Under the pieces are notes generated by a model, which did no database searches, was not told the origin of the DNA, and saw only the letters and a program-made list of their open reading frames with translations. Made by a program: the position numbers and the translations under genes. 43,487 bases of DNA from an uncultured Lentisphaerota bacterium (lineage in GTDB: Bacteria > Verrucomicrobiota > Kiritimatiellia > RFP12 > UBA1067), in the NCBI GenBank assembly GCA_900320225.1, contig ONRL01000017.1, forward strand, positions 1-43,487, in the 5' to 3' direction. This document shows, one piece after another, positions 19,892 through 31,041 of this stretch; positions within the stretch are counted from its first letter, which is position 1, and every line of letters starts with the position of its first letter.

Positions 19892-22327
19892 TCACTTCAA
19901 GTCCGACCAGTCAAGGGACCAGTAGCGGCGGTCGGTGGCGTAGGGATCGACAGGGCACTTCCGCGGATCGGCGTCCATCGGCAGAATGCCGTAGCGCTTC
20001 ATCTCACGGAGATATTCGGGGTTGGGACAGAACTGCGGCATGTCGAAGCGCGGGTCGGCGTCGAGGACGGACTTCGCGTCGGCGACGAGCGCGAGCAGGG
20101 TCTTGTAGTCGGGATCGTCTGTGCTCGCGAACACGGCCTTCCCGAGCGCGTTCGTGCAGAGGCCGAGTCCACCCGCCTCCTTCGCAAGCGGCGCCTTCAG
20201 GTAGAGCGACTTCTCCGGACGCGTGAGGTTGAAGATGTAGTGCCGCCCGAACTTCCACATGCGGCGGTTTCGCGGATCGGCCTTGTTGTGGAAGTGGATG
20301 GGGGCGCTGTTGCCGAGGTTCCCCGGCGTTGCGTGACACGCCGCGCAGCGCTTCTTCGCGGCTTTCTGCGCAGGACCGTTGACCGCGCGGCCCGCCATGG
20401 GGTTGTAGGGTTCGCGCGACTTGGTGCCGCCCACGAACCCGCAGCCGAGCGCCGCATAGGTACCCGCGTACGGCGCCGAGGCGTCGAGCCATTGCATGAT
20501 CATCCGGCGGTCACGCTCGCTCACCTTCACGCCGTGGTGCGAGCCGTCGATTTTCTTCATGAGCGGACTCCCCCCGCTCCCGCGCGCGTACGGCGGCCAG
20601 TCGCTGTCGGCGAGGTTCCGCCCGTCCAGGACCTGGCCCCACAGGAGCAGTCCGAGGTAGCCCATCGAGTACATCGGCCCATGGTCGCCGCAGAGGTCAA
20701 GTCCGCCCTTCCGCACGTCCGGGTTGTGGCACTTCACGCACGCGCGGTCGAGGACCGGCTGGACGTCGCGCGGGAAGTCCGCCACGTCGAAGAGCCGTCC
20801 CGCGGGGTCGATCTCGCTCGGCTTGCGCGACAGCGCCTGCGAGACGGACTTCGTCCGCCGCACCGTGTTCGCCGTCTTGCGCTCGTGGCAGCCCACGCAC
20901 CCCTGGCGCTCGCCCGGCATCACCTGCGTGAAGCTCTGCATGCGTTTCACGGCGCGCCCCTCGGCGTCCACGGCCACGAAAAAGAGCGCCCGCAGCGCGG
21001 GAGCCGTGAAGTAGGCGCTGCCGTCCGGCTCCACGGGCACCCAGCCGAGCAGGCGCGGCAGGGCGAACGACCCGCCGTACGTGAGCGGCTCCATGCCGCC
21101 GGAGAAGTTGACGGGCTTGGGCAGCACCTCGAACACCATCAGCCGCTTCACCGTGCCGGGCTTCACGCCCTGCATGCTGCGGCTCTCGAGCACGTTCTCC
21201 AGGTAGAATTCGCCCGTCTTCTGCGAGAGGTCCGTGCGGTCGGCGAGGACGCGCTCGCGCGCATGCGGCTGGAGCGGACGCGGCTCGTAGAGCATCACGC
21301 CCGGCGTGGCGCCGCCGAACTCGGGCGGCAGCTTGAACAGCGTCTCCCTCTTCCCCGCGCGGTCGCAGAGCAGGACGCCCTTCCCGTCCGAGAACATGAA
21401 GAGGTCGCGCCCGAACGCCCACGGGTCGTAGAAGTTCCCCTTCGCGACGGCCTTGACGTTCGCCCGGTCGTCGGGGCCGCCCTTCACGGAGAGGACGCTC
21501 ACGATGCCGCCGTGATCGCGGCGGCCGTGTCCCGGCGAGTCGATGAGCACCACGTCCTCCGTGCCGGGGATGGGCTTCGCGTCGATGTACACGCTGCCGG
21601 GATAGGTGTTCCCCTGGTAGACCTGGTGCTGCGTGCCGTCGGGGTTCATCGTCCAGAGGTGGTGGAACGTCACCTGACGGCGATCCACGTACTCCCAGCG
21701 CATGTAGAGGATGCGCCCGTCGGGCAGCACCCAGGGCGTGTTGTCGTGCTCGGTGTTCGCGGAGATCATGCGGATCCCGGAGCCGTCGGGCTTCATACGG
21801 TAGAGCGTGGCCACCTGCGTCATCCAGCAGTTCACCCAGCGCCGGCAGCGCGTCGAGACGAAGGCGATGTCGCCGTCGGGGAGCCACGTGGGCTCGAAGT
21901 CGTCGTATTCGCCGAACGTGAGCTGGCGGAGGTTCGTGCCGTCGGCGTTGATCGTGTAGAGGTGGTAGGAGCCGGTGCCGCCCGGACGGTACGAGAAGAG
22001 GATCGTCTTGCCGTCGTAGTGCACGGCCGGGTCGCGCACGCTGCCGGACGGGTTGACGAGCAGCGCGCGGAACTTGCCGGTCTTGAGGTTGTAGGCGAGG
22101 AGCCGCCCTTCCGTGCTGTAGGCGGGCGCGTTCGTAGACTTGCAGAAGTAGGAGATGTTCGCGTACCAGTGCGGATCCTGGCTGACCGTGCGCGTGGCGA
22201 AAATGATCTCGTCGAAGGCGCCGTATGCGCCCGACGCGAGCCGCTCCCGCAGCTGCGGCGCGGGTGCCGCGACCACCGACGCGACGACCGTGAAAAATGC
22301 AATGCGGAACAGCGGCACACGGGCCAT
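19892..22327 (-). CDS. HzsA-related multihaem protein with beta-propeller and three CxxCH sites
   Basis: An 811-residue exported protein. After a signal peptide (MARVPLFRIAFFTVVASVVA), residues about 40-320 are TolB/WD-like propeller blades (LYTINADGTNLRQLTFGEYDD, YRMKPDGSG, LWTMNPDGT). Residues about 340-470 resemble the hydrazine synthase alpha-subunit middle domain. The C-terminal part is cytochrome c-like with haem motifs at 477-481 (CVGCH), 530-534 (CVKCH) and 661-665 (CAACH). HzsA-related proteins of unknown function are common in Planctomycetes and Verrucomicrobia; this is not evidence for anammox, as no HzsB/C partners are present. The ATG starts two bases after the stop of the 83-residue gene, with GAGG upstream, so it is coupled to the DUF3791/DUF3990 cassette. 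Confidence 0.82.
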   Translation of the reverse strand: MARVPLFRIAFFTVVASVVAAPAPQLRERLASGAYGAFDEIIFATRTVSQDPHWYANISYFCKSTNAPAYSTEGRLLAYNLKTGKFRALLVNPSGSVRDPAVHYDGKTILFSYRPGGTGSYHLYTINADGTNLRQLTFGEYDDFEPTWLPDGDIAFVSTRCRRWVNCWMTQVATLYRMKPDGSGIRMISANTEHDNTPWVLPDGRILYMRWEYVDRRQVTFHHLWTMNPDGTQHQVYQGNTYPGSVYIDAKPIPGTEDVVLIDSPGHGRRDHGGIVSVLSVKGGPDDRANVKAVAKGNFYDPWAFGRDLFMFSDGKGVLLCDRAGKRETLFKLPPEFGGATPGVMLYEPRPLQPHARERVLADRTDLSQKTGEFYLENVLESRSMQGVKPGTVKRLMVFEVLPKPVNFSGGMEPLTYGGSFALPRLLGWVPVEPDGSAYFTAPALRALFFVAVDAEGRAVKRMQSFTQVMPGERQGCVGCHERKTANTVRRTKSVSQALSRKPSEIDPAGRLFDVADFPRDVQPVLDRACVKCHNPDVRKGGLDLCGDHGPMYSMGYLGLLLWGQVLDGRNLADSDWPPYARGSGGSPLMKKIDGSHHGVKVSERDRRMIMQWLDASAPYAGTYAALGCGFVGGTKSREPYNPMAGRAVNGPAQKAAKKRCAACHATPGNLGNSAPIHFHNKADPRNRRMWKFGRHYIFNLTRPEKSLYLKAPLAKEAGGLGLCTNALGKAVFASTDDPDYKTLLALVADAKSVLDADPRFDMPQFCPNPEYLREMKRYGILPMDADPRKCPVDPYATDRRYWSLDWSDLK

Positions 22328-22329
22328 GG

Positions 22330-22581
22330 CTACACCTCGGGTTTTATGGTGGCGTACAACGCATCGACCCCACGCTCTCGTTCAATGTCAAGACACATGC
22401 AAAGATATTCGTTTGGTTCTAGAAAAAGCCTTGTATCTGGATTTGAAAGCAACTTGAAGGTCTCTGTTGAACAGAGTTTTCGATAGGCGTCATCCTGGGC
22501 GAGCCCCTCAACTGCCATGATATGACGCGTGAGACCTACAGCACAAGCCGCAATCGCAGTCTGAATTTTCTGATCTGTCAC
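22330..22581 (-). CDS. Small protein of the DUF3990 cassette, unknown function
   Basis: An 83-residue, probably cytosolic, helix-rich protein (TDQKIQTAIAACAVGLTRHI ... EYLCMCLDIERERGVDALY). Its size and layout recall DUF3791-type partners of DUF3990, but I cannot assign it to that family with confidence. GTG 22581 overlaps the DUF3990 stop (GTGA) and has GGAGG eight bases upstream. The stop lies two bases before the HzsA-related start. By position it could be an antitoxin or accessory protein for the ADP-ribosyltransferase-like product. Confidence 0.65.
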   Translation of the reverse strand: MTDQKIQTAIAACAVGLTRHIMAVEGLAQDDAYRKLCSTETFKLLSNPDTRLFLEPNEYLCMCLDIERERGVDALYATIKPEV

Positions 22582-23138
22582 GGCATCGTCCTCCAGTCGA
22601 CCTCCTCCATGCTCGCCACGACGCGATCCGCCACCGACTGCTTCCCGACATGACACTGGACTCCAAGATTTTCCGTTTCCAACACCTGAAGCAATAGGCT
22701 TTTTGCCGTGGCGGAACCGGGCATGCCGTACGCCCCGTCACGGTAGAACTTCAAAGCCATCATTGTATCGTCATCGGCCGTCGGTCCGACAACGAGATCG
22801 TAGTCATGCGGAACGCCCTCCGATGCACGGCACATGAGAATGAAGTCAAGCCATTCCATGTCGGCAGCGGCAAAGGTCTTGACTTTGAGCGTGTCGACGA
22901 CTTCCGGCTTGAGCCGAATGCGATAAAGCGTCTTTTGAAAATCGGAAGCCCGAGCATCCCGCCGCCGGCTCAAAGCCTCTCGGAACTTCTTGTGCATCAT
23001 GCCTATGGCTTGGCCTGCGGACACGGCCATGTAGAAGCCGCGGCCAAAGTCCCGGCGTCCCTTTCCCCGGGAGACGTCAATCCGCTTGAAGGGAATAATT
23101 GTTCCGTGATACAATGGCTCAAACAGAATGTGCAACAT
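22578..23138 (-). CDS. DUF3990 protein, ADP-ribosyltransferase-like
   Basis: A 186-residue protein matching DUF3990 from memory of the family pattern: LYHGT near residues 9-13, DFGRGFYMA near 30-38, and YDLVVGPTADDDTMM around 120. His11 and Tyr36 sit where PARP-like ADP-ribosyltransferases carry the H and Y of their NAD site (HG[ST] and G-x-G-[IF]-Y-x-A). The third catalytic position is unclear. ADP-ribosylation activity is therefore plausible but unproven. ATG 23138 overlaps the end of the DUF3791 gene by 20 bases and has GAGG upstream; its stop overlaps the next start. Such overlapping DUF3791-DUF3990-small-gene sets resemble toxin-antitoxin operons. Export signals are absent. Confidence 0.78.
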   Translation of the reverse strand: MLHILFEPLYHGTIIPFKRIDVSRGKGRRDFGRGFYMAVSAGQAIGMMHKKFREALSRRRDARASDFQKTLYRIRLKPEVVDTLKVKTFAAADMEWLDFILMCRASEGVPHDYDLVVGPTADDDTMMALKFYRDGAYGMPGSATAKSLLLQVLETENLGVQCHVGKQSVADRVVASMEEVDWRTMP

Positions 23139-23334
23139 ATTGGTCTACCTCGTCGGCCATTTCAGGCTCAGTCATCGAGTCAAACACGTCAGGGCATTCC
23201 GAAATGAAATGAAGAATGTGAAAATGGCTGTCACGGTCCAAGAACTCGTCGTTCGTGAGACCGTGCCGCCGCTTGTATGCATTCGCCGCCAAATGCATCA
23301 GGAAAATCGAATTGTTCAAACGTCTCTCAGTCAT
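23119..23334 (-). CDS. DUF3791 protein, likely partner of DUF3990
   Basis: A 71-residue cytosolic helical protein (FLMHLAANAYKRRHGLTNDEFLDRDSHFHILHFISECPDVFDSM) fitting the DUF3791 outline: an opening helix followed by a short helical body ending in a motif near the C-terminus. It is the first gene of the cassette, 28 bases downstream of a strong -10. No clear Shine-Dalgarno precedes ATG 23334. As the first and smallest gene overlapping a putative transferase, it is a candidate antitoxin. Confidence 0.7.
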   Translation of the reverse strand: MTERRLNNSIFLMHLAANAYKRRHGLTNDEFLDRDSHFHILHFISECPDVFDSMTEPEMADEVDQYVAHSV

Positions 23335-23362
23335 GTCTTTGACACACTTTCGTCACACGAGT

Positions 23363-23371
23363 ATTATACCA
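23363..23371 (-). promoter_or_regulatory. Extended -10 promoter of the DUF3791/DUF3990/HzsA operon
   Basis: TGG-TATAAT on the minus strand (23371-23363). A short hairpin, TGCGC-loop-GCGCA, lies just upstream (23385-23398). No convincing -35 was found. Confidence 0.6.
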
Positions 23372-23419
23372 CATTTCGCCCTTATGCGCCCAAGCGCAAC
23401 ACTTCTCATCCCACCACTC

Positions 23420-26400
23420 TCACCGCAAGAAGATCGTCGTGCCGATGCTGGCGAAGAAGCCGGAGAGCACCGCCCCGCCTTCGTCGTTCGCGCCCGGCTC
23501 GTACGCGAACGTGAACGCCATCGCGCCCGAACCGGAGAAATGAACGTCATGGACGCCCTGCGCGTACGTGCCGAACGCCTCGCCGTCCTTCATGACGGTG
23601 AGCGTGCCCGTGCCGGTCACGTTCACCTGGAAGGAACACGGGCAGTTCATGTTCTGCCGCGGCGCAGGCGTCCAGGTGAGTGCCAAACTGCCGGACGGAA
23701 TCTCGACCAGCCCGTCGTGATTCTCGAAGACGGCGTTGTCCGCCTCCGTCACGACGAGGTTCTTCGGTCCGAGATCCTGCGCGAATTGCGGCAGCCAGTC
23801 GAACTCGAACGCGCCTGCGTCCACGCCGCCGCCCAGGCCGCGCCGCACGCCGTTCAGGCCCGTCTCGCCCGTCAGGTTCGTGACCGCGTACTCGAAACGG
23901 CTCGCGTCGATCGCCACCGACCCGTGACGCGGCATGCCATCGGGACCGAGGGCGATCTCCTCCTGGCTGGCGATGACGTTGTCCGCGCCCTCCAGGACGT
24001 CGAAGCGCATCGCGTCCAAGAACACGTTGTGGTAGGCGTTGGACAGGACCTGCGCCTCGCTGCGGTTATATGGCATGGCCACCACGTTGTTCCAGAACTT
24101 GTAACCCTTGACCTGCCCCACCGTGAGGCGGCAATCCTCCGTCCGTCCTGCCATCGTGCCAAGTCCGTTGTCCGCTGCAAAGGTACAACCGACAACATCG
24201 TAGTGATACTGCACGAGACCGCTGTAGAAACCGCCGTCCCGCGCAAGGTTGCCGGCCACGTAGCATCCGTAGAGCGCCACTTGGCGTCCTGCGGGGGAGT
24301 TGCCGGTCACGTGGTTGCCAACAATGCGGCAGCGCCTGAACGTGACGCAGGCTCCCGCCGCGCCGCGATGGGAGGCGCAGTTGGTGATGACGCAATCCGC
24401 CACCTCCGTCTCGGTAGCGGAACGCCCCAACACGCCACCGCCCCAGTTGATATCGTCCATTGAGTTCTGCATGTCCGTATGGCCGCCTCGAATCGTGAAT
24501 CCCCTCACCTTTGACCCGTTGTTCAGGTACACGCACCGTTTGGCGCCGAGTCCAAGGCCGTACTCATTTGCCGCCTCCGGATCCGGCTCGCCCTGGATCA
24601 CCGTCTCGTCCGCCGCCCCTTCCGCGACAAGCGTCACGTTCGTCTGGACCACGACGCGCGACGGAATCACCACGTCCGTATAGGCGATCGTCTCGGCCGT
24701 GCGGTAGGGATTGTCCTGCACCATAGTGCCCGTGTCGTACACGCCGGGCAGCGCGTGAACCGTGTCGCCCGCCCAGGCGTGCGACATCGCGCCGGCGAGC
24801 GTCTTCTTCGCGGACGCCGCGTCCCAGCCCGTATTGGCGTCATTGCCGTTAACCGCGTCCGCCCACCAGTCGGTGTTGTAGATGGGCTTCACGGTGAACG
24901 ACGTGAAGTCCGCCACCTGGTCCGCCGTGAGCGTCACGGACGTACCCGCCACCGTCTGCGTCGCGCCGTTCACCTCATAGCCCAGCAGCTGGCGGTCGGC
25001 ACGCGTGGCCGTGACCGTGACGGGAAACTCCGCCACGACCCCCTCGACGTCGGTTCCGCCGGGAACGGGCGACACGACCTTCACGGAGGGGACGAGGTCG
25101 CTCACAGCACCCGCCGTGATCCGCCCGTTCGGTCCGATCGGAAAAGGTTTCCCGTTGAAATCGGCAAAGCATCCGCCGTCCGCGAAGACGTCGGCATTGC
25201 CGAAGTACGTCCCGGCGGATGCCGCGTAGGGACGGAAGTCGCCGTTGAGGTAGTCCGCGAACAGCGTCGTCTCCTTCACGCAGTTCGGCGGGTTGGAAGA
25301 CGCCTTTGCGAAGACGCAGAAACCAATGCCCGCGGAGTGTTCGGCGTCGTTGCCCTTCGCGTTCGCGGCGAACACCGTGTTGGACGCGCAATCGGCGACC
25401 GAGACAAGCTGCGCGGTCGGGCAGTAGTTGCTCACCACCGTGCAGTTGCGCGCCTTCGTGTTCTGTCCGACAATCCCGTTGCCCGAATAGTTGCGCGTGA
25501 GGACGCAGCTCCGCGCGGTGCCCGTGCGCGTGATGGCGTTTCCGCCCGACGCGACCCGGTTCTCCACGAGCAGGCAGCGCTCGACGTAACCGCCGAAGAA
25601 CACGGCGCCGCGACTCGCGGCGCAGTTCGACACCACGCAGTCCAGCAGCGCGGAGCTGAAGGTGCTGTTGTCGGACGTCGACTGCGCCATCATCGCGCCG
25701 CCGCGCACGGCCTTGCTGTCCGAACCGTTCGCGTTGACCGAGGAACGTCCGCCCGTGAGCGTGAACCCTTGGACAGAGTGGCTGGAGGAGAGGAAGGCCA
25801 CGCACCGTACCGCGTTCGGCCCGAGGCCGCAGTCGTTCGCCACGGCCGGCGCGGGATCCTCCGCGCCGACGATAAAGGTATTCGACGGGCCTTCGAGCGC
25901 CTTCAGGCGCACGTTCTTCGACGCGGCGAACACCACGCGGTTGGACGTTCCGTGCGCGACGGCGCCGCCCTCGTCGTAGCGGCCGGGGTGGGCATACACG
26001 ACCGCGTTGGCGACAGAGTCTCGCACGAGGCCGTCCATCGCGCCCTGGAGCGTCCGCCAAGGCGCCTCCGCCGTACCGGCGGCCGTGTCGTCGCCGCTTG
26101 GCGAGACGTACCGCGCATCGCCGACAACAGGTACGACCGTTGCGCTTCCCGAGGCGGGCGGCAGCACGTAATAGACCTCGTCCGCCGTGGGCCAGCGGGA
26201 ATACCCCGCATACTGGTAGCAGACGAGTCCCTTGCCGGCGTTCGGCGCGAACGTGACGGCATAGGCGCGTGGCCAAGGTGCGGCGTAGGCGTAGGTGCTC
26301 GATCGCATCGGCACGCCGTCCACATACATTGTACCGCCGGAGGCCGCGCTGAACGAGAGATAGCCGCTCCCTTCGCACGAGACGGTCTCCTGCACGGCGC

Positions 26401-27430
26401 CGCAGTAGCCGTCGGCAAGTGGATTCTGGGTCACCGCCGCACCCTCGGCGCGAAGACGGAAGTCGCCCGCCGCCGGCGCCACGAACAAGCGGGAAGTGCT
26501 CTCGTTCACGTAGAGGCAGCCGTTGGGTTTTCCGGTAACGTCTGTGATGCAGGTGTAGATGTTCTGTTCAATGCCGCATCCGCCGTTGGCCACGGCGACG
26601 CAGTTGCTCGCGAATCTGGCCGACGAACCATCGATGTTGGAAAATGCGTTCACCGTGTCGTTGTATGCAAACGTGCAGTTCACGGCGGAGTAACCGTATG
26701 CCATCACGCCGACGCCGGCGCTCCCCAACGTGCTGTTGCGGTAGATGACACATCCTTCCAGACAGCACTCGCGCGCCGCCGCGCCGAAGTTAGAAGCCCT
26801 GTTTCCCGTAAACGTGCAATTCACCGCCGTGACGCCGTAAATGCCGCCGCCGCGCGTGCCCGTGTTGTCGCGAATCACGCAATCGCGCACGACGATGTAG
26901 CCCGCGGCCGTCACGCCCGGCTGGGCCTGGACGTTGAGGACGCCTGCACCGCGCACGGGGGCGGAGTCGCTGCCGAACGCCGTCGCACCGTCGCGGATGG
27001 TGAAGCCCTCGATCTTCACGTTTGTGACACCAGTCGCCACCGCAATGCAGCGGATGGCGCCGGGCCCCATGCCCCACGGAGAGGCGTTCGTCGCCACGTT
27101 GGTATCCTTTGCGCCGACGATGTGCGTGACGGCCGCGCCGTCGCGCGAGCGGAGCGTAAGGTTCTTCAGGATGTACACGCGGTTCGACGACACCACCGAG
27201 CTGGCGGTGAACGTATTGCCGCCCTCGTCGTAGACGCCCGGCAGGACGGTCACCACGTCCCCGGCCGACGCCGCGCTCACCGCCGCCTGGATGGTCCGCT
27301 TCGCGGTGGCGACGGACGTGCCGTTGCCGCTGTCGTCGGAGCGCGTGCGATCCACGAACCATTCGGTGGCGGGCAGGCTGAAGGCCACGGTCGCTGCGGC
27401 CGCGAGAATCCAGTTGCGCGTTTGTTTCAT
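23420..27430 (-). CDS. Giant secreted right-handed beta-helix protein
   Basis: A 1336-residue exported protein (signal MKQTRNWILAAAATVAFSLP). It contains three copies of a pectate-lyase-like unit. Each opens with a V/YVSP-type strand and a D-x-G-x-GT segment, then AKRTIQAAVSAASAGDVVTV-type and LPGVYDEGG-type strands, followed by turns rich in CVI.N/NCTF..N repeats typical of parallel beta-helices. Units begin near residues 24, 440 and 855. Such proteins bind or cleave polysaccharides; no catalytic site could be identified. The C-terminus ends in a hydrophobic tail closing GTTIFLR, resembling those of the two LamG proteins here. ATG 27430 has AGGAG six bases upstream. It starts 48 bases after the LamG gene and is probably cotranscribed with it. 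Confidence 0.82.
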   Translation of the reverse strand: MKQTRNWILAAAATVAFSLPATEWFVDRTRSDDSGNGTSVATAKRTIQAAVSAASAGDVVTVLPGVYDEGGNTFTASSVVSSNRVYILKNLTLRSRDGAAVTHIVGAKDTNVATNASPWGMGPGAIRCIAVATGVTNVKIEGFTIRDGATAFGSDSAPVRGAGVLNVQAQPGVTAAGYIVVRDCVIRDNTGTRGGGIYGVTAVNCTFTGNRASNFGAAARECCLEGCVIYRNSTLGSAGVGVMAYGYSAVNCTFAYNDTVNAFSNIDGSSARFASNCVAVANGGCGIEQNIYTCITDVTGKPNGCLYVNESTSRLFVAPAAGDFRLRAEGAAVTQNPLADGYCGAVQETVSCEGSGYLSFSAASGGTMYVDGVPMRSSTYAYAAPWPRAYAVTFAPNAGKGLVCYQYAGYSRWPTADEVYYVLPPASGSATVVPVVGDARYVSPSGDDTAAGTAEAPWRTLQGAMDGLVRDSVANAVVYAHPGRYDEGGAVAHGTSNRVVFAASKNVRLKALEGPSNTFIVGAEDPAPAVANDCGLGPNAVRCVAFLSSSHSVQGFTLTGGRSSVNANGSDSKAVRGGAMMAQSTSDNSTFSSALLDCVVSNCAASRGAVFFGGYVERCLLVENRVASGGNAITRTGTARSCVLTRNYSGNGIVGQNTKARNCTVVSNYCPTAQLVSVADCASNTVFAANAKGNDAEHSAGIGFCVFAKASSNPPNCVKETTLFADYLNGDFRPYAASAGTYFGNADVFADGGCFADFNGKPFPIGPNGRITAGAVSDLVPSVKVVSPVPGGTDVEGVVAEFPVTVTATRADRQLLGYEVNGATQTVAGTSVTLTADQVADFTSFTVKPIYNTDWWADAVNGNDANTGWDAASAKKTLAGAMSHAWAGDTVHALPGVYDTGTMVQDNPYRTAETIAYTDVVIPSRVVVQTNVTLVAEGAADETVIQGEPDPEAANEYGLGLGAKRCVYLNNGSKVRGFTIRGGHTDMQNSMDDINWGGGVLGRSATETEVADCVITNCASHRGAAGACVTFRRCRIVGNHVTGNSPAGRQVALYGCYVAGNLARDGGFYSGLVQYHYDVVGCTFAADNGLGTMAGRTEDCRLTVGQVKGYKFWNNVVAMPYNRSEAQVLSNAYHNVFLDAMRFDVLEGADNVIASQEEIALGPDGMPRHGSVAIDASRFEYAVTNLTGETGLNGVRRGLGGGVDAGAFEFDWLPQFAQDLGPKNLVVTEADNAVFENHDGLVEIPSGSLALTWTPAPRQNMNCPCSFQVNVTGTGTLTVMKDGEAFGTYAQGVHDVHFSGSGAMAFTFAYEPGANDEGGAVLSGFFASIGTTIFLR

Positions 27431-27478
27431 GTGATGCTCCTGACTTGTGTCGTGACGATGCGTTCCCGCGCGATGCGG

Positions 27479-29206
27479 TTACCGGACGAAGAGGAAGGTG
27501 GCGTCAGTGGGGCGGATCGGTTCGAGGACGATCGCGTCGAAGCCGAAGTAGTACGCCTTGTTGTCGCCGAGGTTCGGCGAGGCGTTCATGAAGACGATGT
27601 GGTTGAGGCCCGCCGGCATGTCCTCGGGCTCCACCTCGAACGCGAACTTGTCGCCCCGCGTCACGCTCTGCACGATCACGTTGCGGCCGTTGAAGTCCAC
27701 GCGCATCGGCAGCTTGCCGCCAGGCACTAGGCTAGTCGGCGGATACACGCCGCCCGTGATCGCCCCGTGGATGCGCCAGCGGCAGGCCGACGCCAGTTCG
27801 GCAGGCATGTGGAAATGCACGTTCAGGTTCGTCACGGAGGGGGACCGCCCCGTCTGCAACACGCGGCTCAGGTCGCGCAGGTTGCCGCTCGCCGCGTAGT
27901 AGTCGCGCCCCGTCGACCACTCCTGCCCGTACTCGGAATAGCCGCCGTCGAGCTTGCCGAGCTGCCAGCCGCCGCCGAACGCGACCGTGTCCGGCACGAT
28001 CGCCCCCGCGCCCGCGTCGGTGCGCGTGACGGTGAGCGTGTTCGTCGCGGCCCGGAGCGCGTTCGTGGGCACATAGAAGTAGCTCCATTTCCCCGGCAAG
28101 GCGTTCCGGGTTTCCAGCGTGCGGCCGTTCACGACGAGCTGGAGGCGTCCTTGCGCCGACCCCTCGACCGACTTCCAGCGGAGGAACTGCGGCAGGGCCG
28201 TCTCGTAGAGGTTCTCCAGCGGGAACTTGAACGTGACGGACTGCCGGGCGGCGAGGCCGTCCTTGAGCGGCCATGCGGTGCCGTCCACGTCGAAGCCGTC
28301 CGCCGGGCGCGTGCCTTCGAAGTCCGGACCCGCCTGGCCGTCCTGCACGCCCACGCGCCAGCGGTCCGTGTTCGGCCAGCCGAGCGCGCGGTACACCTCC
28401 TCGGTGGAGAGCGAGCGCCGCCACGCGGCGACTTGCGCGATGCTCCCGCGGAAGCACTTGAGGGAGTTGTCGTTCGCGCCCATCGGATAGGGACGTGCGC
28501 CCGTCGCCGTCGCCTCCGCGCCGAGAAGAATATTCGCGCCGTTGGGCGTGAGCTCCCGCTGGACCGGAATCGTGATGGTCTTGACCTGCGTCGCGCCCGT
28601 CGTCTCGCCCGTCTGCCTCCAGTCGCGCATGAGCATGCACGTGAGCTTGCGCCCGTTGGCGATCATCGCGATGTCGCACCAGCCGTTCGTGCAGAGGATG
28701 TTGCCGAAATCGACGCCCGTTCCGCCGACGTAGCCGGTAAGCTTGCGCGAATGGGCGGTGCCGGTGCCGTTGAAGCCGAACATCAGGCCCTTACCGGCTC
28801 CGTGCGCGAACTGGACGAGCCACTGCGAGCCGTAACAGGGCGTCGTCCAGTCGGGACGCACGCGCAGGATCAGCGTGTAGTGGTCGTCGAAGCCCGTCAG
28901 CGCATTCTGTATCTGATAGGTGGATGGATAGGCGCGCCCGGCCGTCTGCGCCTCGTTCGTGTACTCGATCGGCTGGGGGAAGTAGAGCGTGTTCATCTGG
29001 CGCGCGGCGTTGCGTCCGGGCATGCGCACGAGCTCGTTCGTGAACACCGGCTTGTGGTCGGCGTGGCTGTAGGCCTTGACCTTGATATCCGTCCGTCCGA
29101 GGAAGTCGCGTCCCTCGCTCAGGGCGTCGTCCACGAGGCCGTTCCCGTTGAGGTCGCCGCTGAAGTCGTGGATCCAGAACGCCGCGTCCGCCATCACGGA
29201 CGGCAA
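27479..29206 (-). CDS. LamG protein, C-terminal part (after an apparent frameshift)
   Basis: About 575 residues that continue the LamG gene starting at 30907. The segment opens with an EF-hand or dockerin-like DLNGNGLVDD, then a concanavalin A-like LamG domain (DDHYTLILRVRPDW ... CFRGSIAQVAAWRRSLSTEEVYRALGWPN). A beta-sandwich follows, recalling carbohydrate-binding or lyase accessory domains, and the tail ends ATFLFVR. There is no convincing start: the first possible codon is TTG without a ribosome site, and the protein joins smoothly to the preceding reading frame if one base is corrected near 29205. I therefore read it as the C-terminal part of one interrupted gene rather than a separate gene. 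Confidence 0.7.
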   Translation of the reverse strand: MPSVMADAAFWIHDFSGDLNGNGLVDDALSEGRDFLGRTDIKVKAYSHADHKPVFTNELVRMPGRNAARQMNTLYFPQPIEYTNEAQTAGRAYPSTYQIQNALTGFDDHYTLILRVRPDWTTPCYGSQWLVQFAHGAGKGLMFGFNGTGTAHSRKLTGYVGGTGVDFGNILCTNGWCDIAMIANGRKLTCMLMRDWRQTGETTGATQVKTITIPVQRELTPNGANILLGAEATATGARPYPMGANDNSLKCFRGSIAQVAAWRRSLSTEEVYRALGWPNTDRWRVGVQDGQAGPDFEGTRPADGFDVDGTAWPLKDGLAARQSVTFKFPLENLYETALPQFLRWKSVEGSAQGRLQLVVNGRTLETRNALPGKWSYFYVPTNALRAATNTLTVTRTDAGAGAIVPDTVAFGGGWQLGKLDGGYSEYGQEWSTGRDYYAASGNLRDLSRVLQTGRSPSVTNLNVHFHMPAELASACRWRIHGAITGGVYPPTSLVPGGKLPMRVDFNGRNVIVQSVTRGDKFAFEVEPEDMPAGLNHIVFMNASPNLGDNKAYYFGFDAIVLEPIRPTDATFLFVR

Positions 29207-30907
29207 GCGCCGTCGGCGCGTCGAGGCGTCCGCCGGGGATGAACTGCGAGACGTAGTTCGTGACGCCGTTACCGAACGTCGCGCCGGTCACGGCGTCGCG
29301 CATCCGCGCCTCGCCGTTCACGACGCAGGGCGAGTACGTGCGCGCCGCGATGCCGTTCGTCTGGACGGACGCGCCGTACAGCTCGGCGTAGGCGAAGTTG
29401 TAAAAAAGCCCGTTCTTCGCCTTGGAGGCCAGGATTCCGAGCGTCACGTTGCCGATCTTCGTGCAGTTCGTCGCGACTCGGGTATCCGACGAAAGCGCCA
29501 CCGAAAGGACCTGCTGTCCGTCGTGGCTGACGGTGTAGCGGTCGTTCGGACAGTCGAGCGTGACCTGCGTGCGGTGGTCCAACGACGGCTTGAGCGTCGT
29601 GCCCGTCCAGTTGCCCGTGTCGTCCATCGCGGACCAGGCCCAGAGGCCGCTGCCGTTGATGTAGGCGGCCAGCGTGAAGAGGCTGTTGTCCACGCCGAAC
29701 GCGCGCTGCTGCACGTCCAGCGCGAGCAGGCGGAAGTCCGCCGAGATGCACACGTTCGTGCCGGCGAGGATGCCCGTGTCGATGCAGTGGCGTCCGTCGC
29801 CCCGGATGTAGGCGCAGTCGTAGGAGCCGCCGGACGGCAGCACGAAGATCCGGCCTTTCGAGAATCCCTTCGCGCTGGGCGGCAGATGGTAGCGCCCGTA
29901 CGTCGCGTTGGCGGCGAGCGTGCCGATGCGCTCGTTGCGCGCCCACGCGGCGAACGTCGTGCCCTTGTCCGTCTCGTCCCAGACGTACCACACCTCGCGC
30001 GCGGAGGACGACGGGGCGAAGGAGACGTCGATCGTGCCGACGTCCACGTCCGAACGGTAGCAGGACGTCACCGCGACGGGGGCGGCCGCGACGGCGGCGG
30101 ACGTCTCGCTCGCCACGGTTCCCGAAGGCGGCGCGCCGAGGAGCATGTTTCCGGCGGTGCGCGGGAAGAACTTGCCCGTCACCGCGTCGCGCATGCCCAC
30201 GACGCCGTGATTCACGTACGGCCTGAAGTCGTGCGCCAGCGTGCCGTTGTGCGAGATGGTGAACGAATAGTACTTCGCGTTGAGGCGCTGGTCGACGTTC
30301 GGAGCCGATGCGGCGATGTTGAGCGGCGTGGTGGCCGTGCCCGTGCGATTGGCGGCCGTGACGGAGCCGGAGATGGTCATCGTCTTCTTCTGCACGCCGT
30401 CGATCGTAAGCGTGTACTTGTCGGTGTAGCCATCCAGCAGAATCTGCGTGCGTTTCAACTCGACGTTGATGCCGCTCGTCGTCCAGTTGCCGGCGTTGCT
30501 GTAGCTCCACGACCAGAGACCGCTGCCGTTGATGTAGGCGTGGACGGTGAGACCAAATCCGGTCGCCGTGCCGAACACGCGCTGCTGGTAGGGCGAGACG
30601 CTTTTCGGCTGGAAGTCGACGGTGATCGCCGTGTCGGCCGGACCGGGATAGTAGTCGGTCTGGATGTACTGCGTACCGTCCGTCTCGATGTAGTCGAGCT
30701 GCTGGTTGTCCGGCACGAGGAAGAAGCGCATGTACGCCGCCGAGAGCGCGGCGGGCGGAGCACGGCGCGGTCGGCGTTCGCCGCCGAGTAGGAGAGCGTC
30801 ACGTCGCATGCCGTGGCGCTGGTACGGTGGAACTTCTCCACCGTCAGCGCACCCGATGTGAGCGCCGCCAATGTCACCAAAATGCAACACAGACTGTTCT
30901 TTTTCAT
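29190..30907 (-). CDS. LamG protein, N-terminal part (two apparent frameshifts)
   Basis: It begins with a signal peptide, MKKNSLCCILVTLAALTSGA, and VTLSYSAANADRAVL. The frame then breaks near 30755-30765. In the next frame come two related LamG-like modules: LDYIETDGTQYIQTDYYPG ... AYINGSGLWSWSYSNAGNW, and CAYIRGDGRHCIDTGI ... AYINGSGLWAWSAMDDTGNW. Near 29205 the frame returns to the original one, entering the C-terminal part. The whole span (30907 to 27479) is an exact multiple of three, so the two changes compensate. It is probably a surface carbohydrate-binding protein when intact. ATG 30907 has AGGTGG upstream, with a promoter at 31012-31041. Sequencing error, pseudogene formation and programmed shifts are all possible. 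Confidence 0.65.
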
Positions 30908-31011
30908 ATGATCCACCTGTCCTACCTCTCGCCCATGTCGTCCTCGGGAAAGGCCACACGGCCCCTTGAAGCCCGCCGAACGTCCACATATTGAGAGATT
31001 CGCACGAAATC

Positions 31012-31041
31012 ATCATACCAAATTTTCCCGCACACGCGCAA
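31012..31041 (-). promoter_or_regulatory. Promoter of the frameshifted LamG gene
   Basis: Minus strand: TTGCGC (31041-31036), an 18-base spacer ending TTTGG, then TATGAT (31017-31012). A leader of about 100 bases follows before the ATG. Confidence 0.5.

Follow-up and report, generated by a model that had tools for sequence, protein, structure and literature searches.

The window analysed here is a contig of 43,487 nucleotides (ONRL01000017.1) from an uncultured Lentisphaerota bacterium (genome G000), and its element of interest is a cassette of three small genes, A1-ART-A2, that lies directly ahead of a gene for an exported haem protein. The minus strand carries four genes in a row: A1 (23119-23334; 71 amino acids), an upstream DUF3791-like protein of the PDC-M13A type and putative antitoxin; ART (22578-23138; 186 amino acids), a DUF3990 protein of the PDC-M13B type with a predicted ADP-ribosyltransferase (ART) fold and putative toxin; A2 (22330-22581; 83 amino acids), an all-helical, DUF3791-related, PDC-M13C-like downstream protein and putative antitoxin; and HZS (19892-22327; 811 amino acids), an exported tri-haem HzsA-related protein that is judged to be a neighbour outside the module. 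A1 and ART overlap by 20 bases, A2 starts at a GTG within GTGA that overlaps ART by 4 bases, and HZS begins 2 bases past A2; small genes co-encoded in overlapping frames, as the first three are, characterize type II toxin-antitoxin systems. The same four-gene order is found in the sister species G005, where the cassette proteins are 98-100% identical, and therefore is not an assembly artefact. An earlier reading of the bare sequence (the original prediction) had already described this row of four minus-strand genes, with its 20-base and 4-base overlaps and final 2-base gap, and the gene calls agree with it; the numbering of His11 and Tyr36 given there is also correct.

The single extended -10 promoter that had been proposed ahead of the genes was located as an exact match, TGTGGTATAAT, at 23363-23373 on the minus strand, the sole exact extended -10 match in the window; with up to one mismatch there are four matches in the window, against 0.03 expected. 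The motif TGnTATAAT (up to one mismatch) occurs within 330 bp upstream of ART in 26 of 52 cassettes but in 12% of control stretches. Given this enrichment, the promoter appears to belong to, and travel with, the cassette.

ART is a member of Pfam family DUF3990 (92 bits, cut-off 32; E 3e-26) and matches the PADLOC PDC-M13 model (E 5e-26). Pfam places DUF3990 in the ART clan (PMC7955679). A single-chain AlphaFold2 model made from an alignment of 21 proteins has a predicted local distance difference test score (pLDDT) of 93 and a predicted template modelling score (pTM) of 0.87. ParT (Z 8.8), ExoA (Z 8.1), and Xre-RES (Z 8.0) lead the structural neighbours given by a second aligner, NatT (Z 7.2), diphtheria toxin, and tankyrases appear further down, and nearly all named rows of the list are ART-superfamily entries; the model thus has the predicted fold of the ADP-ribosyltransferase superfamily. 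H11, Y36, W96, R104, and Q161 are invariant across the 21 aligned sequences, and Q161 sits on a late strand of the model. From alignment and model, H11, Y36, and Q161 would form the active site of the H-Y-[EDQ] clade of ARTs, which the H-Y-Q of DUF3990 fits (PMC9503650). The original prediction saw motifs like those of poly(ADP-ribose) polymerases (PARPs) in this protein, asked for a predicted structure to be compared with PARP folds, and would have been abandoned had that structure lacked a pocket for nicotinamide adenine dinucleotide (NAD). The predicted fold and the invariant H11 and Y36 uphold the motifs, tankyrases are among the neighbours, and, because the structural list is dominated by ARTs, the family belongs to the ART clan, and the motifs are invariant, absence of an NAD pocket is not indicated. 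Sequence searches of solved structures with the ART or A2 profile gave no meaningful match. The closest ARTs from beyond the genus (51-56% across the full alignment) come from one Eubacteriaceae genome, from spirochaetes, and from one Verrucomicrobia genome, and each has A1 and A2 homologues in place, with A1 truncated in one; relatives also occur on viral contigs. No close ART relatives were found on plasmids, and phages gave one partial match.

The two small partners are more divergent from the catalogued families. A1 matches Pfam DUF3791 with E 2e-4 and 21.5 bits, below the curated cut-off of 25, and its homologues hold the same position in Eubacteriaceae, Treponema, and Verrucomicrobia. 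For A2, Pfam gave nothing and PADLOC gave only weak PDC-M13 matches (PDC-M13C, E 7e-4); its relatives (34-46% identity) stand directly behind the nearest ARTs. An NCBIfam search gave no name for A1, ART, or A2. Profile comparison relates A1 to A2 (E 8.5e-6, probability 83%). The A2 model consists of five helices (pLDDT 92); its best match in the PDB (Z 4.5) is uninformative for a small helical protein.

The arrangement itself is already catalogued, and modules of this kind are common in gut bacteria. PADLOC lists DUF3791-DUF3990-DUF3791 as the candidate PDC-M13, with 3324 occurrences, as counts of predicted systems, in 6530 rumen genomes (PMC13356809), and to call the unit 'new', as the original prediction did, was too strong: the window module is a divergent member of a catalogued, uncharacterised module. 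It has the same three genes in the same order (DUF3990 between two DUF3791-type genes, A-B-C). A typical PDC-M13 member, L126, has E-values of 6e-32 on model M13A, 5e-59 on M13B, and 1e-30 on M13C, whereas in the window ART reaches E 5e-26 and the small proteins only about 1e-3; close relatives of the small proteins match clearly.

In the wider family, where U denotes the small upstream gene, A the ART, and D the small downstream gene, U and D are the rule around DUF3990 genes of the order, 4-base overlaps are frequent, and 41 of 53 DUF3791 matches lie within 600 bp of a DUF3990 match. Triads were classified in 13 congeneric genomes (G000-G012) at loci found by both DUF3990- and DUF3791-anchored searches. 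The three genes are nearly always together there, as about 24 complete triads of order U-A-D and 10 of order A-D-U. The second order, which differs from that of PDC-M13, was exposed by profiles built in this analysis; loci first scored as lacking U carry it behind D. Another 15 ARTs of these genomes have no U or D, and all belong to a longer class (open frames of at least 215 amino acids). Eleven of the 15 are followed by a protein of 211-247 amino acids of one recognisable kind, and four by a protein of 141-146 amino acids. Pfam identifies an Xre-type helix-turn-helix (HTH) in the G000 member of the eleven partners, and the other ten are assigned to HTH by resemblance; a longer DUF3990 protein with an HTH partner would have the layout of a classical type II pair. 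One such pair, L075 (G000:C260, 3485-4772), consists of a longer DUF3990 protein and then a protein with a C-terminal HTH_3. The idea that the HTH partner contains D- or U-like domains was considered and rejected (only weak profile scores; hhalign probability 12%). Elsewhere in the window's own genome, two complete triads (L074; G000:C212, 6223-9416) flank a gene with a GGSTGKGKS P-loop-like motif, possibly a mobile element.

Decay of the cassettes is asymmetric. At 11 loci U and D are full length and ART is deleted or truncated (G001:C339, G005:C27, G006:C567, G007:C72, G011:C75, G007:C48, G000:C257, G011:C12, G011:C91, G011:C54, and G011:C1). The remnants have differing deletion end points and include in-frame internal deletions and U-D fusions (G007:C72 and G011:C75). 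The reverse is seen at one locus at most, the contig-edge G009:C263 with a damaged U; a handful of loci decayed in more than one gene were left out of the count. This pattern is consistent with the preferential toxin loss of type II toxin-antitoxin systems, as an indication rather than defining proof, the comparison having been devised after the first truncated copies were seen and not planned beforehand. The asymmetry suggests that it is ART that is costly to carry and that the small proteins act as its antidote. It is a first indication of which PDC-M13 gene is the toxin, and it makes a direct test simple.

The reading we favour, at a probability of roughly 0.7, is that A1-ART-A2 forms a mobile toxin-antitoxin-type module, self-contained, with a promoter of its own and the PDC-M13 arrangement, and that HZS is a passenger. 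The original suggestion of a toxin-antitoxin cassette is strengthened by the ART fold, the small partners on both sides, and the comparative decay, with toxicity still a deduction; its option of a selfish cassette inserted ahead of HZS is close to the view taken here. Known modes of action of small ART toxins are modification of macromolecules and depletion of NAD (PMC9503650, PMC11535050). We infer that ART, as a member of the H-Y-[EDQ] clade, would use NAD to modify a cellular target or would consume NAD, harming the cell, and that the two small helical DUF3791-type proteins, made from overlapping frames on either side and presumably co-transcribed with it, would jointly restrain it. Stress, phage takeover, or loss of the module would then free ART, and HZS, as a passenger, may be read through from the cassette promoter. 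The chances are evenly balanced that the family makes up a toxin-antitoxin class with three components. In such a class, two DUF3791 proteins homologous to each other would act together to neutralise an H-Y-Q ART, the genes would come in two permuted orders, and the pair would be kept, sometimes fused, after deletion of the toxin.

Solved structures of the RES-domain ARTs from ParST (Z 8.8), Xre-RES (Z 8.0), and NatRT (Z 7.2) rank with the closest to the ART model, and these systems, like the window module, comprise a small ART toxin encoded with an antitoxin, roles that are putative for ART and for A1 and A2. NatT depletes NAD (PMC11535050). RES proteins belong to a divergent R-S-E clade of ARTs (PMC9503650), whereas DUF3990 has H-Y-Q; by sequence ART is not a RES protein, Pfam giving DUF3990 only and identity to RES structures being 11-13%. 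The RES systems use one Xre-type antitoxin, in contrast to the two DUF3791-type proteins without an HTH found here.

Several points weigh against the favoured reading. The fold call depends on the motifs, on the placement of the family in the Pfam ART clan, and on Z values of about 8-9; a Z near 8 can reflect a common arrangement. Foldseek alone gave ParT as its best match to the ART model (E 0.039) and none at E <= 0.001. Among the ART-loss loci, G007:C48 and G011:C91 are at contig edges, G011:C54 is recombinant, and all eleven come from draft assemblies. Binomial p-values, on similar target sizes, are 0.001 for 11:0, 0.006 for 11:1, and 0.02 for 9:1, and they treat the loci as independent, which is only partly true since some of the eleven are related cassettes. 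The 2-base gap between A2 and HZS permits read-through. The literature searched held no toxicity or neutralisation experiment and no functional study for the PDC-M13/DUF3990 family.

Of the other explanations, a role for the module as an anti-phage abortive-infection system, in which phage infection releases ART, is a tentative possibility. In its favour, PADLOC catalogues the gene trio as a phage-defence candidate, and there are ART toxin-antitoxin systems, DarTG among them, that act on phage (PMC9503650). The PDC label is, however, a database prediction, the surroundings of the window cassette yielded no established defence genes, and relatives also occur on viral contigs, as with general addiction modules.

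It is unlikely that the module is an addiction element that stabilises a mobile 11-kb block with HZS as cargo. Such a block (19892-30855; no strand assigned), with the cassette and HZS inside, is common to the window and G005: Blast synteny with G005:C77 stops at the HZS stop codon and near 30855, and the window DNA flanking the block maps to other G005 contigs, so that the genomic setting differs. The cassette DNA is about 99% identical to that of G005, and synonymous divergence (dS) is 0.024 for A1, 0.049 for ART, and 0.017 for A2, against 0.284 for HZS and 0.464 for the upstream gene. Yet a search of limited depth at the ends of the block revealed no integrase, repeat, or other mobility gene, and the cassette family is found in many other surroundings where the block is absent. 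We do not claim that the cassette by itself moved recently between G000 and G005, and no transfer history was built: the gene at 27.5-30.8 kb likewise has about 97% identity, and the background identity of G000 and G005 is uneven (71-89% in other parts of the window and 95.5% for one HZS paralogue). Between 19892 and 27430, HZS and the upstream gene of 1336 amino acids, beside the near-identical cassette, show patchy identity to G005 (about 57-96% per 100 bases), a pattern suggestive of recombination or rapid change. At 27479-31016 a G005 gene of 1206 amino acids (G005:C77:11283-14903) matches as two pieces that lie in different frames and overlap near 29193-29230, and the window copy therefore looks frameshifted, by biology or assembly.

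That the DUF3990 protein is a benign modifying enzyme with the small proteins as its cofactors is improbable: toxicity of ART is deduced and not drawn from experiment, which suits this explanation, but repeated loss of ART with both partners kept, U-D fusions included, is hard to explain if the partners only support an enzyme.

Least probable is that ADP-ribosylation by ART, set by the small proteins, adjusts synthesis or activity of HZS, for the two-base gap, the lack of an evident sigma-70 promoter ahead of the window HZS, and the recurrence of the four-gene order in one sister species are set against HZS orthologues free of the cassette in eight same-genus genomes, other cassettes with no HZS beside them apart from one distant relative, and the export of HZS, whereas no signal peptide is visible on ART. 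These orthologues, at 78-85% protein identity and with sufficient upstream sequence (G003, G004, G008, G009, G010, G011, G012, and G015; the G013 copy is cut by a contig end), occur in five contexts. In G003 and G004 the gene follows a pyridine-nucleotide/4Fe-4S oxidoreductase at a distance of about 18 nt, in G009 and G011 it is fused in frame to a preceding Lcl_C-like domain, and the remaining three contexts are those of G010 with G015, of G012, and of G008. Conversely, the neighbour survey that the original prediction had called for found, among 52 DUF3990 loci, a high-identity HZS only in the window and G005, on the one shared block, and a 30% relative near one other locus. HZS was therefore rejected as a regular cassette partner, and the proposed unit controlling a redox protein is not upheld; the cassette lies ahead of HZS by coincidence of position rather than as a redox-control unit. 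The original prediction was to fall if HzsA-related genes turned up with their own promoter and no cassette link. Orthologues with no cassette link were indeed found; a promoter of their own is only suggested, by a TATGCTAAAAT-like sequence read by eye ahead of HZS in G012, and in essence the prediction falls on this point. Tight gene spacing in this genus should not be equated with function, HZS being close behind, or fused to, several unrelated genes.

As the original prediction stated, the row ends with an exported multihaem HzsA-related gene: HZS has an HZS_alpha domain (71 bits), PD40, and three CXXCH motifs at residues 477, 530, and 661. It resembles the anammox hydrazine synthase subunit alpha (HzsA) in its HZS_alpha middle domain, PD40 propeller, and c-type haem motifs, and differs from it in its score on the true-HzsA model (56 bits against the 800-bit cut-off for an HzsA equivalog), its three CXXCH, and its large paralogue family. 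On that score 'HzsA-related' is apt and hydrazine synthase is not implied; hydrazine chemistry was dropped as the function of HZS. The 5' ends of the HZS body differ between species, and in L068 (G011:C132, 10156-13230) and L011 (G009:C279) the domain to which the orthologue is fused has a sub-threshold Lcl_C match. HZS-like genes form a large family, with commonly 9-18 matches per genome in the genus and up to 22 in the family.

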